Notes under the pieces: model-generated
What the model was told of the DNA's origin: nothing
Databases searched by the model: none
What the model saw: only the letters and a program-made list of their open reading frames with translations
Source: Tatumella citrea
Lineage (GTDB): Bacteria; Pseudomonadota; Gammaproteobacteria; Enterobacterales; Enterobacteriaceae
NCBI RefSeq assembly: GCF_002163585.1
Contig: NZ_CP015579.1
Span: 1,364,001 to 1,428,000 of the forward strand
Reading direction: 5' to 3'
Length of the DNA: 64,000 nt
Position numbers and translations under genes: made by a program
Shown here: positions 14,152 to 19,970 of the stretch, piece by piece
Position numbering within the stretch: the stretch's first letter is position 1
How the letters are laid out: every line of letters starts with the position of its first letter

Positions 14152-14664
14152 ATGAAAAAAATTGCATGTCTTTCAGCATTAGCTTGCGTACTGGCGGTTT
14201 CTGCCGGTTCAGCAATGGCACAGAGCACCGTTAGCGCAGGTTACGCACAGAGTGATTATCAGGGCGTACTGAACAAAGCTAATGGCTTCAACCTGAAATA
14301 TCGTTACGAAGATGGTTCTAACCCACTGGGTTGGATCGGATCTTTCACTTATACCGAAAAAGATCGTAACACCGGTAATGATTATCAGAAAGGTCAGTAC
14401 TATGGCTTCACTGGTGGTCCTGCTTACCGTCTGAATGACTGGGCGAGCATCTACGGTGTTGTAGGTATCGGCTACGGTAAATTCCAGCTGAACAACCAGA
14501 CTTCTTACCAGAAGCAAGATACCAGCGATGTTGGTTTCTCTTATGGTGCAGGTATGCAGTTTAACCCAATCGAAAACGTTGCTATCGACGTTGGTTACGA
14601 GCAGAGCCGTATCCGCAGCGTAGACGTGGGTACCTGGATCACTGGTGTTGGTTACAGCTTCTAA
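14152..14664 (+). CDS. ompX: Outer-membrane beta-barrel protein OmpX
   Basis: OmpX is a small eight-stranded outer-membrane barrel linked to adhesion and envelope stress. The 170-residue precursor (E. coli 171) has a signal peptide MKKIACLSALACVLAVSAGS ending AMA, then alternating barrel strands, ending in the C-terminal YSF recognised by the Bam machinery. The ATG at 14152 has GAGGTGATT upstream; a frame open to 14098 is not part of the gene. Its original terminator has been split by an IS element immediately downstream. Many RpoE-dependent sRNAs, including RybB (present at 30236-30298), repress OMP mRNAs. Confidence 0.97.
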   Translation: MKKIACLSALACVLAVSAGSAMAQSTVSAGYAQSDYQGVLNKANGFNLKYRYEDGSNPLGWIGSFTYTEKDRNTGNDYQKGQYYGFTGGPAYRLNDWASIYGVVGIGYGKFQLNNQTSYQKQDTSDVGFSYGAGMQFNPIENVAIDVGYEQSRIRSVDVGTWITGVGYSF

Positions 14665-14682
14665 TAAGCTGCTTGCCAATAC

Positions 14683-14702
14683 GAAAAAACGGCCCAACGG
14701 GC
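14683..14702 (-). terminator. Left half-copy of the split ompX bidirectional terminator
   Basis: An A-run (14684-14689) followed by C-G and the GCCC-AAC-GGGC stem (14692-14702). Read leftward it is still a hairpin plus T-run. Read rightward the T-run has been replaced by the IS end, so ompX transcripts lose their terminator here. Confidence 0.75.
14692..14702. repeat. Target-site duplication, left copy
   Basis: GCCCAACGGGC, identical to 16118-16128 and immediately abutting the IS left end. Eleven bp is within the usual size for IS4-family insertions. Confidence 0.92.
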
Positions 14703-14749
14703 TAATGCCGATCGTTTAAGGATCATTTGACCGATCCGGTGGTTGGTGT

Positions 14750-14783
14750 AAAAAGGGTTCATGTGCAGACATGGACCCTTTTT
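14750..14783 (+). promoter_or_regulatory. Hairpin in front of the transposase start
   Basis: AAAAAGGGTTCATG (14750-14763) pairs with CATGGACCCTTTTT (14770-14783) with one G-T pair and a 6-nt loop, ending 2 bp before the transposase ATG. It acts as a terminator-like or ribosome-site-hiding structure. In IS10 and IS50 such structures block transposase production from read-through transcripts; here ompX read-through would meet it. Confidence 0.7.
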
Positions 14784-14785
14784 AA

Positions 14786-16108
14786 ATGGAACTTTCGCAA
14801 GCTCTCGGCATTATTAATCTCACTGCTCCCGAAGAAGTACAGAGCCTCTCTGACCTGCTCTCTCCTGACCTCATCCGACAGGCGTTTTCCCTCACTGATA
14901 CCGTCACGCTGCGTAAGCGTAAACTTCCCCTTGAGTCGATGGTCTGGCTGGTTATCGGTATGGCCATATTCAACAATAAGCCCATGAGCCATATCGTGAA
15001 TTTGATGGATATTGTTGACCGGACCGGACGGTCATTTACCGCACCCAGCTCTGTGATTGCCCGCCGAAAAACACTGGGCGAAGATGCCATCCGGGTCCTG
15101 TTTGATCTCACTCAACAACACTGGCACGAAGAAGCCAGACATCCTCTCTGGCACGGGTTGACGCTTAATGCTGTTGATGGCGTTGTCTGGCATACCCAGG
15201 ACACTCCTGAAAATGCAGAGGCCTTCGGCAAAGCATCTAATCAGCATGGTGAACGCGGTTATCCTCAGGTTCGTATGGTGTGTCTGATGGAACTCAGCAG
15301 CCATCTGCTGCGTGCAAGTGTGTCAGGTCGCTACGATATCAACGAAATGCGGCTGGCCGCTCAGCTGGCAGAAAATGCACCGGATAACAGTATTACGCTG
15401 TTTGATAAGGGCTTTTACTCTTTAGGGTTGTTACATGACTGGCATAATGCAGGTGAAAATCGCCACTGGCTAACGCCGCTGAAAAAGAACACTCAGTATG
15501 AAGTGGTACGAAAGCTCGGCAGGCAGGACGAACTGATACGACTGAAAACCACGCCTCAGGCCAGAAAGCAATGGAAAGGCCTGCCGGAAGAACTCATAGT
15601 GAGGCTAATCAGGCGGAAAGTGAACGGGACGGAACGGCAGGTAGTCACTTCCATGACAGATGCGATGCGTTATCCGGCGACTGACGTGGCAGAACTTTAT
15701 AAGCATCGCTGGGAAATCGAGCTGGGATATCGTGAGGCAAAGCAGTTTTTACTGGGAAACCGCTGGACGCTGAGAAGCCGGTTGCCCGATCTGGTGAAGC
15801 AGGAGCTATGGGGAATACTGCTGACGTATAACCTGGTGCGTTACCAGATGATTAAAATGGCGTTCAGCCTGAAAGGAAATTACCTGCCTTACCAGTTGAG
15901 CTTCAGCGGTGCAGTATCAGAGATATTACGGCTACTGATCGGTCTGCCGTGGGCTTCACCGGGAGCCATCCCGGGTCACCTTAAACACTTTTACAGTAAT
16001 GCCGGGATGCTGAAACTGCCACCACGACGAGAACGGGAATATGTGAGAGAAGTGAGGGAGAAAAGGTCGAAATATCCCTTTAAAAACAATGCCGGTCACC
16101 TTAAGTGA
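14786..16108 (+). CDS. IS4-family DDE transposase
   Basis: The 440-residue protein is similar along its length to the IS4 transposase (442 residues), e.g. TVTLRKRKLPLE, LTLNAVDGVVW, ELWGILLTYNLVRYQMIKMA. The catalytic triad is visible: Asp131 in NAVDG, Asp207 in LFDKG and Glu312, within the family signature Y305-x2-R308-x3-E312-x6-K319. No frameshift or stop interrupts it. The stop codon lies inside the right-end palindrome. It reads in the same direction as ompX. Cut-and-paste transposition through hairpin ends is known for this family. Confidence 0.96.
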   Translation: MELSQALGIINLTAPEEVQSLSDLLSPDLIRQAFSLTDTVTLRKRKLPLESMVWLVIGMAIFNNKPMSHIVNLMDIVDRTGRSFTAPSSVIARRKTLGEDAIRVLFDLTQQHWHEEARHPLWHGLTLNAVDGVVWHTQDTPENAEAFGKASNQHGERGYPQVRMVCLMELSSHLLRASVSGRYDINEMRLAAQLAENAPDNSITLFDKGFYSLGLLHDWHNAGENRHWLTPLKKNTQYEVVRKLGRQDELIRLKTTPQARKQWKGLPEELIVRLIRRKVNGTERQVVTSMTDAMRYPATDVAELYKHRWEIELGYREAKQFLLGNRWTLRSRLPDLVKQELWGILLTYNLVRYQMIKMAFSLKGNYLPYQLSFSGAVSEILRLLIGLPWASPGAIPGHLKHFYSNAGMLKLPPRREREYVREVREKRSKYPFKNNAGHLK

Positions 16109-16116
16109 CCGGCATT
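16088..16116. repeat. Perfect 12-bp palindrome at the IS right end
   Basis: AATGCCGGTCAC (16088-16099) and GTGACCGGCATT (16105-16116) are perfectly complementary around CTTAA. The right terminal repeat forms one arm and the transposase stop codon lies in it. The left end lacks this arm. Confidence 0.85.
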
Positions 16117-16117
16117 A

Positions 16118-16128
16118 GCCCAACGGGC
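16118..16128. repeat. Target-site duplication, right copy
   Basis: GCCCAACGGGC, identical to 14692-14702. Confidence 0.92.
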
Positions 16129-16138
16129 CGTTTTTTTA
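16118..16138 (+). terminator. Right half-copy of the split bidirectional terminator
   Basis: The stem GCCC-AAC-GGGC plus CG and seven T's still terminates rightward transcripts, now those of the transposase. For the leftward dehydrogenase operon the T-run is lost, because the stem is followed by the IS end. Confidence 0.75.
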
Positions 16139-16154
16139 TTTCCGGTAACCAGTG

Positions 16155-17453
16155 CTACTTAGCAGCCTGAGAAGCGGGTTTCGGGATTAGCTTGCGGATA
16201 TCGGCAACCTGACTGGCTGTGACCGCAGCAGCATTATTCCCCCATCCCTGACGGATAAAGGTGGCGACATCCGCGACCTGCTGATCCGATAACCGCCAAC
16301 CAAAGTCCGGCATGGTTAATCCGGTCGGCATATCTGGTGTCACTGCGCGTTGTCCCCCCTGCAAGATAATATGAATCACTGATGAAGGGTCACTGTTCAG
16401 TACTGCGGAATTGCCTGCCAGTGACGGGAACGTTTTATCATACCCTTTACCATCCGAGCGATGACAGGCAGAACAGTTATCCAGATAAACCTGTGCACCC
16501 GTAGCAGAAACATCGCCTTTAAAAAGTGCCTGAGCGGTAGCATTATTACTGGCTGGCGCCTGCGTCTGGTGTGCCGCAGGCAGCGATTTCAGATAGACTG
16601 CAATTGCCTGAAGATCACTGTCGGTAAGATAGCTGGTACTGTCATGAACCACCTCTGACATGGAACCAAAGGCAGAGCTTTGTGCCGTTACACCATTTTT
16701 CAGGAAACTGACAATGTCCTGTTGTGACCAGCGACCCAGACCATCAGATTGCGTGCCGGTGAGATCCGGTGCATACCATCCTTCCAGTGTGTTACCCGTC
16801 AGATAAACCGGATCACTTTGATCAAGTGCTTTCTCCTGGAATGCTATACCTCTCGGAGTGTGGCAGGCTCCGCAATGTTCCAGCCCCTCGACCAGATACG
16901 CCCCCCGTTGCCATTCTGCCGATTTACCTTCGACAGGCTGAAAACGCTTATCATCGGTAAATGTCCAGCGCCAGAATGCCAGTGGCCAGCGCATACTCAA
17001 AGGCCAGGGGATATCAGAGGCTTTATTCTGCTGGCTGACCGGTTTAACCTGCTGCATAAAATAGTTATACAGATCATGCATATCCTGGTCTGATATCCTG
17101 GTAAAAGAAGCATACGGCATCGCCGGATAGAGGGTTGATCCGGATTTACTGACTCCCTGGCGTACAGCTTTGACAAAGTCATCGTAACTGTAATTACCGA
17201 TCCCGGTATCTTTATCCGGAGTGATATTTGTTGAATAGATGGCCCCTACCGGCGTCGTCATTTTCAATCCACCGGCAAAAGGTTTGCCTCCTTCTGCTGT
17301 ATGGCAGGCAACACAGTCGCCGGCTCTGGCCAGATATTCTCCGCGGGAAAGCGATGTGCTGTCTGACGAGGCAGGACTGTTATCAGCGTAAACAGAGCCA
17401 CAAAACCCAGCCAGCATAATAGCCAACGGGGTAAACACCCTTAATTTCTGCAT
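16155..17453 (-). CDS. Triheme cytochrome c subunit of membrane-bound sugar-acid (gluconate-type) dehydrogenase
   Basis: The 432-residue precursor has a signal peptide (about 1-23) and three CxxCH haem c sites: C47-VAC-H51, C194-GAC-H198 and C327-SAC-H331. This is the pattern of the 45-kDa cytochrome subunit of gluconate, 2-ketogluconate, sorbitol and alcohol dehydrogenases, which passes electrons from the FAD subunit to ubiquinone on the periplasmic face. The start ATG 17453 has AAGGAA 7 nt upstream. A longer frame to 17714 overlaps the upstream gene and is rejected. It is the third gene of the operon, 10 nt after the large subunit. The operon terminator downstream is split by the IS. Confidence 0.9.
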   Translation of the reverse strand: MQKLRVFTPLAIMLAGFCGSVYADNSPASSDSTSLSRGEYLARAGDCVACHTAEGGKPFAGGLKMTTPVGAIYSTNITPDKDTGIGNYSYDDFVKAVRQGVSKSGSTLYPAMPYASFTRISDQDMHDLYNYFMQQVKPVSQQNKASDIPWPLSMRWPLAFWRWTFTDDKRFQPVEGKSAEWQRGAYLVEGLEHCGACHTPRGIAFQEKALDQSDPVYLTGNTLEGWYAPDLTGTQSDGLGRWSQQDIVSFLKNGVTAQSSAFGSMSEVVHDSTSYLTDSDLQAIAVYLKSLPAAHQTQAPASNNATAQALFKGDVSATGAQVYLDNCSACHRSDGKGYDKTFPSLAGNSAVLNSDPSSVIHIILQGGQRAVTPDMPTGLTMPDFGWRLSDQQVADVATFIRQGWGNNAAAVTASQVADIRKLIPKPASQAAK

Positions 17454-17463
17454 ACCATGTTCC

Positions 17464-19242
17464 TTATATTGTAACCAGCGGGCCAGGTGCAGCCAGATAG
17501 CGGGTTTTAATCGCATGTGCCGAGAACAATGCTGTAGCACAGACAATACCTGTCGGGTTGTAGGCCAGGTTTTGCGGGAAACAGCAGGCTCCAAGGACAA
17601 ACAGGTTAGGAACATCCCAGCTTTGCAGGTATTTGTTGACGACGCTGGTGCGGGGGGAGTCGCCCATGACTGCACCGCCGGTAGTATGTGTTGACTGATA
17701 AGGGCGAACATCATAGTGACTGTTCATGTTCATAAAGCCCATTTCATAGTGTGGCGGATTAATGACCTTGATGATCTCTTCAACTTTTCCGCCAATAAAC
17801 TCAGTCATTTTCAGTTCATTAGGTTGCCAGTCGAACGTCATTCTCAGTAATGGTTGTCCGTTAACATCATGATAAGTCGGGTCCAGATCGAGATAACATT
17901 GCCGGTAGGGCATTACCGAACCTGAAGCACCAATAGACATGGTATGTGCATAGTGGGTTTTTATTGCGGTTTTCCAGCCACTTCCCCAACGGGGAGCGTC
18001 AGAGGGTAGCAGTGTCTGTTGAATAGGACGGCCACCACTGAATGCTGCAGAAATTGTTGAGCCGCCGACAAATCCAAGCGATGAATGGTCGAAGTTTTCG
18101 GCATTAAAGTTGTCGATAAAGGTTGCTGTGGTACCTGTAGCCGCGAACGGTTTAAAATCCTGATCAGGTCCAAAAAACAGTTTTGAACCTCCTGTCATCT
18201 GGTAAGCATAATTTCGCCCGACAACACCTTCGCCGGTTTGCGGATCATAGGGCTTACCGATTTTAGAGAGTAATAACAACCGGACATTATGCAGCTGGAA
18301 AGCACTAAGAATCACCAGGGATGCAGGTTGTTCCACTTCATTACCGCTGCCATCAATATAGGTCACTCCGGTAGCTTGTTTACCCGTATTATCGGTATTG
18401 ACCCGAATCACCTGGGCGTTCGTTCGCAGTTCGAAATTATCATAGGCCTTGAGTGACGGAATTACGCAACTTTGTGGAGAGCCTTTGGAATAATTGAAAC
18501 AACCAAAGCGTTCACAGAAACCACAATAGTTACATACTCCCAGTTGCACTTTATAAGGGTTGGTCCAGGCTTCGGTACAGTTAGCAGCAGGGCAAGGGAA
18601 TGGGTGATAACCCATTTTTTCTGCCGCTTTGGCGAACACATCACCGGCATACAAGCGTTGCAGTGGTTTGGTCGGGTAGGGGTTTTGTCTGGGCTGTTCA
18701 AACGGGTTTCCGCCTGACTGAATTTCACCATTCAGATTGCCAGCTTGTCCGGAAGCACCACATATTTTTTCGAATTTGTCGAAAAAAGGTTCCATCTCTT
18801 CATAAGTGAAAGGATAGTCCTGGACGGTCATATCCTGCGGAATAAAATTCGCGCCATATTTCTCAACCAGAGTTGAGTGCATTTTTAAATCGGCGGCCAG
18901 TGGACGCCACAACATGCCATTCCAGTGGACACCTGCGCCACCCACACCATTACCTGGCAGAAAGGACCCAAAACGCCGATAAGGCAGTGCTGTCTGGGAC
19001 GAAGTATGACGGACGGTGACGGTTTCCCGTGCTGCGTTCTGAAATAATTTCAGACGAATGCCATAGGTGAGTTCATCGGTTATACGTGGATAAGCAAAAT
19101 CCGGATAAGTATCTCGTTGTTCACCTCGTTCCAGCGCGACGATCTTTAATCCGGAATCTGCTAATTCACGGGCCATCAGAGAACCTGTCCAGCCAAAGCC
19201 AACAATGACGATGTCGGCTGCCGGTTTTTTAGTTGTTGCCAT
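17464..19242 (-). CDS. FAD-dependent large subunit (GMC family) of gluconate-type 2-dehydrogenase
   Basis: The 592-residue flavoprotein oxidises a sugar acid, probably gluconate or 2-ketogluconate, in the periplasm. The N-terminal FAD motif IVIVGFGWTGSLMAREL (GxGxxG) starts at about residue 11, with E at the ribose position (ALERGE). GNGVGGAGVHWNGM is the GMC flavin region, and a Cys-rich loop CNYCGFCERFGC sits mid-protein, typical of this family. The C-terminus has the HTTGGAVMG and NPTGIVCATA motifs with active-site His/Asn. It has no signal of its own and should be exported with the Tat-signal small subunit. Its ATG overlaps the small-subunit stop (TGATG), implying translational coupling. 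Gluconate and 2-ketogluconate enzymes cannot be told apart here. Confidence 0.9.
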   Translation of the reverse strand: MATTKKPAADIVIVGFGWTGSLMARELADSGLKIVALERGEQRDTYPDFAYPRITDELTYGIRLKLFQNAARETVTVRHTSSQTALPYRRFGSFLPGNGVGGAGVHWNGMLWRPLAADLKMHSTLVEKYGANFIPQDMTVQDYPFTYEEMEPFFDKFEKICGASGQAGNLNGEIQSGGNPFEQPRQNPYPTKPLQRLYAGDVFAKAAEKMGYHPFPCPAANCTEAWTNPYKVQLGVCNYCGFCERFGCFNYSKGSPQSCVIPSLKAYDNFELRTNAQVIRVNTDNTGKQATGVTYIDGSGNEVEQPASLVILSAFQLHNVRLLLLSKIGKPYDPQTGEGVVGRNYAYQMTGGSKLFFGPDQDFKPFAATGTTATFIDNFNAENFDHSSLGFVGGSTISAAFSGGRPIQQTLLPSDAPRWGSGWKTAIKTHYAHTMSIGASGSVMPYRQCYLDLDPTYHDVNGQPLLRMTFDWQPNELKMTEFIGGKVEEIIKVINPPHYEMGFMNMNSHYDVRPYQSTHTTGGAVMGDSPRTSVVNKYLQSWDVPNLFVLGACCFPQNLAYNPTGIVCATALFSAHAIKTRYLAAPGPLVTI

Positions 19243-19970
19243 CAGACACTCCTTTTACCGGAAATACTCACAGGGCCCAACGGGTATGGGACATTTGGCT
19301 GTGCTACGGTGTCGGTATAATCTGCACGAGCCCCCGGGTAACCAATCAGTTTCCATGAAGCCAAAGTCTGATTGCCTCCATGTACCGGGTCTGCAAGGTA
19401 GCCTTCCTTGGTGTTATCCAGCAGTTGCTCAAAAAATAACGAACCACTCAGATTGTTATCCGTCAGGGTATTCTTTTCGAGTAACTGTAATACCTGATCC
19501 TGCTGGTCGGTGGTGAGTTGAGCAAACGACTTATGAAATGTTTGCTGGCAGTAGTGCTCAGTGAGTGCAATCCCCTGGCGATAAAGCTCACGAGGCACCA
19601 GAGGGGACTGGTAGCCCAGGGTCGGGTCGCTGTGGGATGCGAAAGGGGGCTGCATATACCAGAGGTGTCCGTAACCATAAGGGAGTTCCATCTGACGATC
19701 GATGTAGACCGGAACACCTTCACTGACAGCTCCCGCCCCGTTCTGATCTTCCGGAATTAGCCGATCAACTGCGGCATTAATAAACGCCCATTGCTGAGGG
19801 TCAAAAAATTGCGGTACGTAATCCTGAGTGACTGCCGGAGTTTTTTTTTCGGCAGCCTGGCTGGTGGCAAAAGGAGTACCTGTGGCTGCAACTAAAGGGA
19901 TTAGCGATAGAGAACGTTGTAAAAAAAGTCGTCTGCCGGTGGAGTCCTTACTCCGGGGCGTATTTTTCAT
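19242..19970 (-). CDS. Small (gamma) subunit of gluconate-type 2-dehydrogenase, Tat-exported
   Basis: The 242-residue protein starts with a twin-arginine signal: GRRLFLQRSL near residue 12, then a hydrophobic stretch and a cut near SQAA. The mature part has the gluconate 2-dehydrogenase subunit 3 pattern (FDPQQWAFINAAVDRLIP, Asp/Glu-rich loop, GYQSPLVPRELYRQGIA, QLLEKNTLTDNN). In this family it chaperones and co-exports the FAD subunit through Tat. The start ATG 19970 has AAGGAG 8 nt upstream. It is the first gene of a three-gene minus-strand operon inserted between ompX and mntR relative to E. coli. Confidence 0.9.
   Translation of the reverse strand: MKNTPRSKDSTGRRLFLQRSLSLIPLVAATGTPFATSQAAEKKTPAVTQDYVPQFFDPQQWAFINAAVDRLIPEDQNGAGAVSEGVPVYIDRQMELPYGYGHLWYMQPPFASHSDPTLGYQSPLVPRELYRQGIALTEHYCQQTFHKSFAQLTTDQQDQVLQLLEKNTLTDNNLSGSLFFEQLLDNTKEGYLADPVHGGNQTLASWKLIGYPGARADYTDTVAQPNVPYPLGPVSISGKRSV

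Follow-up and report, generated by a model that had tools for sequence, protein, structure and literature searches.

An IS4-subgroup insertion sequence at the axis of the predicted ompX terminator of Tatumella citrea, and the preference of its relatives for terminator hairpins

In the window (the whole stretch of 64,000 nucleotides of Tatumella citrea analysed here), an insertion sequence of the IS4 subgroup divides the predicted terminator between ompX and a convergent gluconate-dehydrogenase-type operon, and the joint lies at the axis of the terminator hairpin. The other copies of the element in this genome and the insertions of related elements elsewhere occupy, for the most part, sites of the same kind. 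The account that we propose, to which we assign a probability of roughly 0.7, is that the transposase would prefer a symmetric target, that this preference would bring the element into terminators, and that the element would then replace the terminator that it has split by inward-facing hairpins of its own.

The insertion and the empty site

The features on which the argument depends are the following, with positions counted from the first letter of the window.

14152 to 14664, + strand: ompX, the left neighbour, reading toward the element (NCBIfam NF006917 OmpX, 308.7 bits, cut-off 176)
14684 to 14702, no strand: left half of the split terminator, comprising A6, CG and the left copy of the duplication (14692 to 14702); repeat search and folding
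14703 to 16117, + strand: IS4-subgroup insertion sequence, 1415 bp, ends TAATG...CATTA, fixed by 13 near-identical copies in the genome
14754 to 14779, + strand: predicted inward-facing hairpin of the left end (folding, -16.6 kcal/mol), then TTTT, just before the transposase ATG (14786)
14786 to 16108, + strand: transposase, a single ORF of 440 aa, with the Y(2)R(3)E(6)K motif YKHRWEIELGYREAK from residue 305
16082 to 16117, - strand: predicted inward-facing hairpin of the right end (16117 to 16087, 14 pairs, -22.1 kcal/mol), then TTTTT, overlapping the transposase stop codon; folding and terminator scanner
16118 to 16137, no strand: right half of the split terminator, comprising the right copy of the duplication (16118 to 16128), CG and T7; repeat search and folding
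16155 to 19970, - strand: convergent gluconate-dehydrogenase-type genes, namely an ORF with three CxxCH motifs, a GMC oxidoreductase and a Gluconate_2-dh3 subunit; ORFs and profile matches

Judged by its sequence, the element is an intact member of the IS4 subgroup, for which PMC2266710 tabulates ends, size and repeat length that the element here fits. The transposase, encoded in one ORF, is of the IS4 type with a YREK motif, scoring 282.9 bits against NCBIfam NF033592 (cut-off 115) and standing above the cut-offs for Pfam Nterm_IS4 and DDE_Tnp_1. The ends, TAATG and, on the complement, TAATG, agree with the -AATR of Table 1 in that paper; the size of 1415 bp (1412 bp in copy L013) falls within 1400-1650 bp; and the direct repeats, which measure 10-12 bp where exact (12 copies in this genome), fall within 10-13 bp. 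The longest exact direct repeat across both junctions of the window copy is the 11-bp GCCCAACGGGC, and the interval 14703 to 16128, whose removal the preliminary description had considered, comprises the element proper plus one copy of this duplication. A motif scanner found no sigma-70-like promoter within 14600 to 16250, and in 14749 to 14786 the stretch separating the left-end hairpin from the transposase ATG has no obvious Shine-Dalgarno sequence.

It had been claimed from the letters alone that an IS4-family element splits the terminator shared by ompX and the dehydrogenase genes at the hairpin axis, and that removal of the inserted DNA restores it. Both claims are borne out by the 11-bp repeat and by the fold of the empty site, which, rebuilt without the element and one repeat, reads GAAAAAACGGCCCAACGGGCCGTTTTTTTATTT and forms a 6-bp G-C stem with a 3-nt loop between A6 and T7 (-8.9 kcal/mol on the + strand, -10.3 on the -). 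The site has the form of an intrinsic terminator downstream of ompX, A6-CGGCCCAACGGGCCG-T7, and is a predicted bidirectional terminator between the convergent ompX and the gluconate-dehydrogenase-type operon. The further claim that each side keeps a stem and a single tract after insertion also agrees with the folds, the stem in question being the inner 4-bp stem only (-3.2 kcal/mol on the left, -4.0 on the right). Comparison with relatives that lack the insertion, which had been proposed as a check, gives a similar picture, with a G-C hairpin and a T-run downstream of ompX in five of five congeners. In the closest of these (G001, 96% identical over ompX) the arrangement is A7-CGGCCCCCAGGGCCG-T6, with an identical stem and a different loop, and the downstream gene is the same by eye.

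Target sites in this genome and in relatives

The genome (4.49 Mb) contains 13 near-identical copies of the element, the window copy included, and terminator-like hairpins host 12 of them (11 of the 12 besides the window copy). Exact repeats flank 12 of the copies, and the hairpin score is passed at 11 of these; the repeats of copy L009 differ by one base, and its rebuilt site folds with -17.5 kcal/mol from the left repeat and -10.6 from the right. The sole copy with no clear terminator target, L005 (G000:C1:4298125-4299543), lies in CCCCGCAGGG, which is flanked by AT-rich arms and stands between genes that are divergent by ORF length. Stem and loop vary among the 12 sites of this genome, which is not the pattern of an insertion sequence that targets REP elements, as judged by comparing the sites with one another.

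Relatives with 35-100% protein identity were gathered by protein and DNA search and their flanks extracted. The 203 loci with a transposase match yielded 151 with both ends and an exact repeat and, once the spurious L129 and repeats of a site were dropped, 114 distinct sites, a set in which multi-copy genomes weigh heavily and the E. coli bamD site is counted twice (L089, L092); the 52 loci lacking an exact repeat, being fragments, contig ends and imperfect repeats such as that of L009, were left unscored. For E. coli, 16 regions were picked by hand, with a lean to multi-copy records, from 2,659 genomes with a match, and gave 12 scored sites. A class-wide search at E of at most 1e-60 gave a match in one of 369 genomes, the window's own. 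The direct repeats over the 114 sites measure 10-14 bp.

The hairpin score at each site was compared with that at every other position in the same flanks. It is at least 15 at 101 of the 114 sites, as against 1.5% of 266,198 local positions, and 97 sites stand in the local top 0.5%; 13 fall below the threshold. By group, the score is passed at 11 of 12 sites in this genome, 3 of 3 for elements that are 70-97% identical, 8 of 12 for E. coli IS4, 32 of 38 for the others at 50-69%, 28 of 28 at 43-49% and 19 of 21 at 35-39%, the hosts including Rahnella, Pectobacterium, Photobacterium, Psychromonas, Colwellia and Thalassotalea. E. coli IS4 is found, among other places, at the ends of lpp, bamD, tdk/adhE and ugd, and this element is the looser one: copies lie inside ygeA, yicI and an IS66 gene, and the IS4 copy near nanX in K-12 MG1655 has no hairpin at its site. 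Copies of IS3-family elements in the same genomes provide a control and lie at hairpins in 0 of 13 rows; a single left flank is common to three of these rows, and the boundaries of some are imprecise.

The preliminary description had suggested terminator hairpins as a preferred target, to be checked on other copies here and in relatives. On the sequences surveyed this preference is strongly supported by 12 of the 13 copies of this genome, by 101 of the 114 sites overall and by the centring of the joint on the hairpin axis, with the proviso that what is recognised may be sequence.

The bamD terminator carries IS4 in three E. coli strains (L089, L092, L093) with repeats of 14 and 12 bp, reflecting either independent insertion or later change. 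The loci L158, L159 and L160 of G504 have identical flanks on both sides, were counted once, and probably reflect the duplication of a larger stretch instead of three insertions. Finally, L131 (G741), a 37% relative with the ends TAACA/TGTTA and a single site with no clear terminator, perhaps marks the border of the terminator-targeting clade.

Centring on the hairpin axis

In the 98 hairpins that score at least 18, the midpoint of the duplication falls exactly on the axis in 68 and no more than 1 nt away from it in all 98, and in 77 the duplication length and the axis agree in parity. Counting outward from the axis, bases 10-13 are A in a proportion of 0.74-0.98 on the left and T in one of 0.77-1.00 on the right; C is favoured in the left half of the core and G in the right half, and the columns of the stem covary, with z up to 8.6. 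An A-run of at least four is present on the left at 98 of the 114 sites, a T-run on the right at 87, and both at 77.

A preference for terminators could in principle be a matter of survival, if insertion were near-random and only harmless intergenic copies remained. Terminators lie outside genes, and 60 of the 101 sites at which both neighbours could be called, their directions being taken from ORF length alone, are indeed flanked by convergent genes. Survival, however, could not bring the joint to within 1 nt of the hairpin axis in 98 of 98 strong cases, nor place 97 of 114 sites in the local top 0.5%, and it is at odds with the 0 of 13 obtained for the IS3-family copies of the same genomes. 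Because the joint is centred on the hairpin axis, we reject survivorship, which has in our estimation scarcely any probability left.

Inward-facing hairpins of the element and its orientation

Inward-facing hairpins of -10 kcal/mol or lower, followed by T's, are present at both ends of all 34 distinct elements, the interior windows of the same elements containing such hairpins in 19 of 238 cases on the + strand and 24 of 238 on the -, in a comparison where right-end and interior windows differ in size. The right hairpin starts within 5 nt of the end in 28 of the 34 and 27-67 nt inside in the other six, and the stem sequences of the left end vary among relatives. In the window copy, an independent terminator scanner lists the right-end hairpin and omits the left-end one, whose T-run is short under the scanner's rule. 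The right-end hairpin, at 16087 to 16117, includes the terminal inverted repeat and may serve at once as transposase binding site, gene end and terminator.

Since a hairpin with T's stands near each end in 34 of 34 elements, the split terminator has probably been replaced and the predicted read-through blocked. Transcripts from ompX should therefore meet a new predicted terminator before the transposase, and those from the dehydrogenase side on entering the element. It had been supposed that ompX transcripts reach the transposase in its sense direction and that dehydrogenase transcripts enter the element antisense; the relative orientation stands, and the supposed read-through is weakened by the element's own inward hairpins, which are predicted terminators.

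A different relation between element and host would obtain if the element chose its orientation so as to have its transposase transcribed from the upstream gene and to re-use the host terminator at the right end. The tandem sites of this genome, three co-directional and one reversed, agree with this, and the first 13 copies suggested a bias of the transposase to point with the terminated gene. This bias is unsupported in the larger set, in which tandem hairpin sites are co-directional in 11 cases and reversed in 18 (p 0.26) and all tandem sites in 12 and 23 (p 0.09), a tendency that is, if anything, opposite. Nor is one tract consistently the longer, the T-run on the right exceeding at 40 of the 114 sites, the A-run on the left at 48 and the two being equal at 26; and a terminator-like hairpin stands ahead of the transposase in 34 of 34 elements. 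A chosen orientation is on these grounds even less probable than survivorship, and replacement by the element's own hairpins remains the preferred reading.

Sequence or hairpin as the signal

What the transposase reads at these sites is a separate question. Sequence profile and hairpin are largely confounded. One possibility is that the hairpin itself is the feature to which the transposase or a host partner responds, whether as an extruded cruciform, as a hairpin in the transcription bubble or through the terminating RNA polymerase, the tracts being incidental to the terminator. The stem columns covary far beyond what composition would give and the insertions are centred on the axis, both of which are consistent with this possibility. 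Likewise, in a profile scan of G000 the inserted sites are hairpins in 10 of 10 cases, as against 21 of 37 equal-scoring uninserted sites (p 0.009). There is, however, no hairpin excess at inserted sites in G046 or G699, two genomes in which hairpins make up nearly all of the high-scoring sites (among uninserted sites with a high profile score, 7 of 8 and 29 of 30, respectively). Furthermore, of the 12 sites with a hairpin score outside the local top 5%, 10 have a sequence-profile score in the local top 2%, the profile having been trained for this comparison on insertion sites of related elements. At two of the 12 (L028, L147) there is in fact an off-centre hairpin. Hairpins with neither tract are also common in genomes (598 of 688, 808 of 865 and 318 of 408 in 400-kb samples of three genomes) and account for 1 of 87 at insertion sites.

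Because hairpin-poor sites keep the profile and tract-less hairpins are nearly absent at insertion sites, we favour a readout of the symmetric duplex, such that the signal may be the A-tract, GC-core and T-tract and not the hairpin. Both readings stand, that of the hairpin being the less probable, at about one chance in four. The duplex is perhaps bent, since the two tracts lie about two helical turns apart. A natural case for examining readout of sequence is L097, on an E. coli plasmid, where IS4 lies inside an IS66 gene at a site that has A- and T-tracts and a GC core and no hairpin.

Proposed account and its consequences

We propose that the preferred target of the DDE transposase is symmetric and about 26-30 bp long, consisting of an A-tract, a C-leaning half-core, a G-leaning half-core and a T-tract, and that the two points at which the element would be joined to it are separated by 10-12 bp and placed symmetrically about the axis. 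As bidirectional intrinsic terminators would be the main sequences of that symmetric form in the genome, the element would land in terminators, most often between convergent genes. The inward terminator-like hairpins near both ends would stop transcripts from both neighbours, and in this way take over from the split terminator and shield the transposase from read-through. Of this account, the sequences themselves show the preference, the centring and the conservation of the end hairpins; that the duplex is read and not the hairpin, that transcription does stop there and that the neighbours are hardly affected is inferred. In its most general form, for which the chances appear to us about even, the proposal is that this IS4 subgroup constitutes a terminator-exchanging transposon lineage, which homes to bidirectional intrinsic terminators in many genera, swaps in its own inward pair, would be near-neutral for both neighbours, and has a transposase that senses symmetric terminator DNA as sequence, bend or cruciform.

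If true, the account would give a biological identity to a specificity reported in 2008, with most of the insertions examined, from Enterobacterales to marine gammaproteobacteria, lying in intrinsic terminators. It would also suggest how a simple DDE transposon limits harm with neither a separate targeting protein nor a guide RNA, and it makes testable what in terminator DNA attracts the transposase. The element would be a candidate tool for inserting between genes, and any IS4 insertion would call for a check of how it affects the 3' ends of neighbouring genes.

Comparison with known systems

Several mobile elements resemble the one described here in part. IS231A has the target GGG(N5)CCC with DNA bending, and its symmetric GC target with bendable flanks is like that found here, whereas its consensus, with G on the left and C on the right, is opposite to the core of the present sites. 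Group IIC introns insert after terminators, and IS4 was reportedly found in the pheST attenuator in 1984; both are, as here, mobile elements at hairpins of the terminator type, the introns differing in that group II introns are targeted via RNA. E. coli IS4 has the same type of target in the present analysis, at 8 of 12 sites.

The closest known system is the IS4 subgroup itself, E. coli IS4 and its kin, whose ends, size, duplication length and YREK motif, as given in PMC2266710, are common to the element here. For some of its members De Palmenaer et al. 2008 note a 'spectacular' specificity for the target arms (PMC2266710). The words 'terminator' and 'attenuat' are absent from the text of that paper, Figure 3 aside, and relative to it the present analysis adds the identification of the target as terminators, together with the paired inward hairpins. 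Insertion sequences that target REP palindromes provide another parallel: ISRm22, of the IS4 family, is reported to insert at the axis of these palindromes, with repeats of 6 bp (PMC1525189), and shares with the element here exact insertion at a palindrome axis, often between convergent genes. REP, however, is one repeated host sequence, whereas the stems at the present sites vary and have in common the A-tract/GC/T-tract form. Similarly, the IS-borne 5' and 3' terminators described as 'mobile attenuators', of which the 5' ones are said in that account to protect against outside transcription (PMC2965389), have in common with the present element a terminator ahead of the transposase; here, by contrast, there is a hairpin facing inward close to each end, and what the element targets is itself a terminator. 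In the survey of PMC9208149, where subgroups are not separated, IS4 is not among the families overrepresented between convergent genes, and its passages on terminators concern motifs inside insertion sequences and their neighbours. A literature search, mostly of titles and with subscription papers largely outside it, found no report that appeared to name terminators as the target of IS4-type elements, nor one that describes such a target together with matching inward hairpins. The separate ingredients of the proposed account have precedents in these systems, and what appears new, as far as that search goes, is their combination, a subgroup whose target is the intrinsic terminator and whose members carry inward hairpins that match it.
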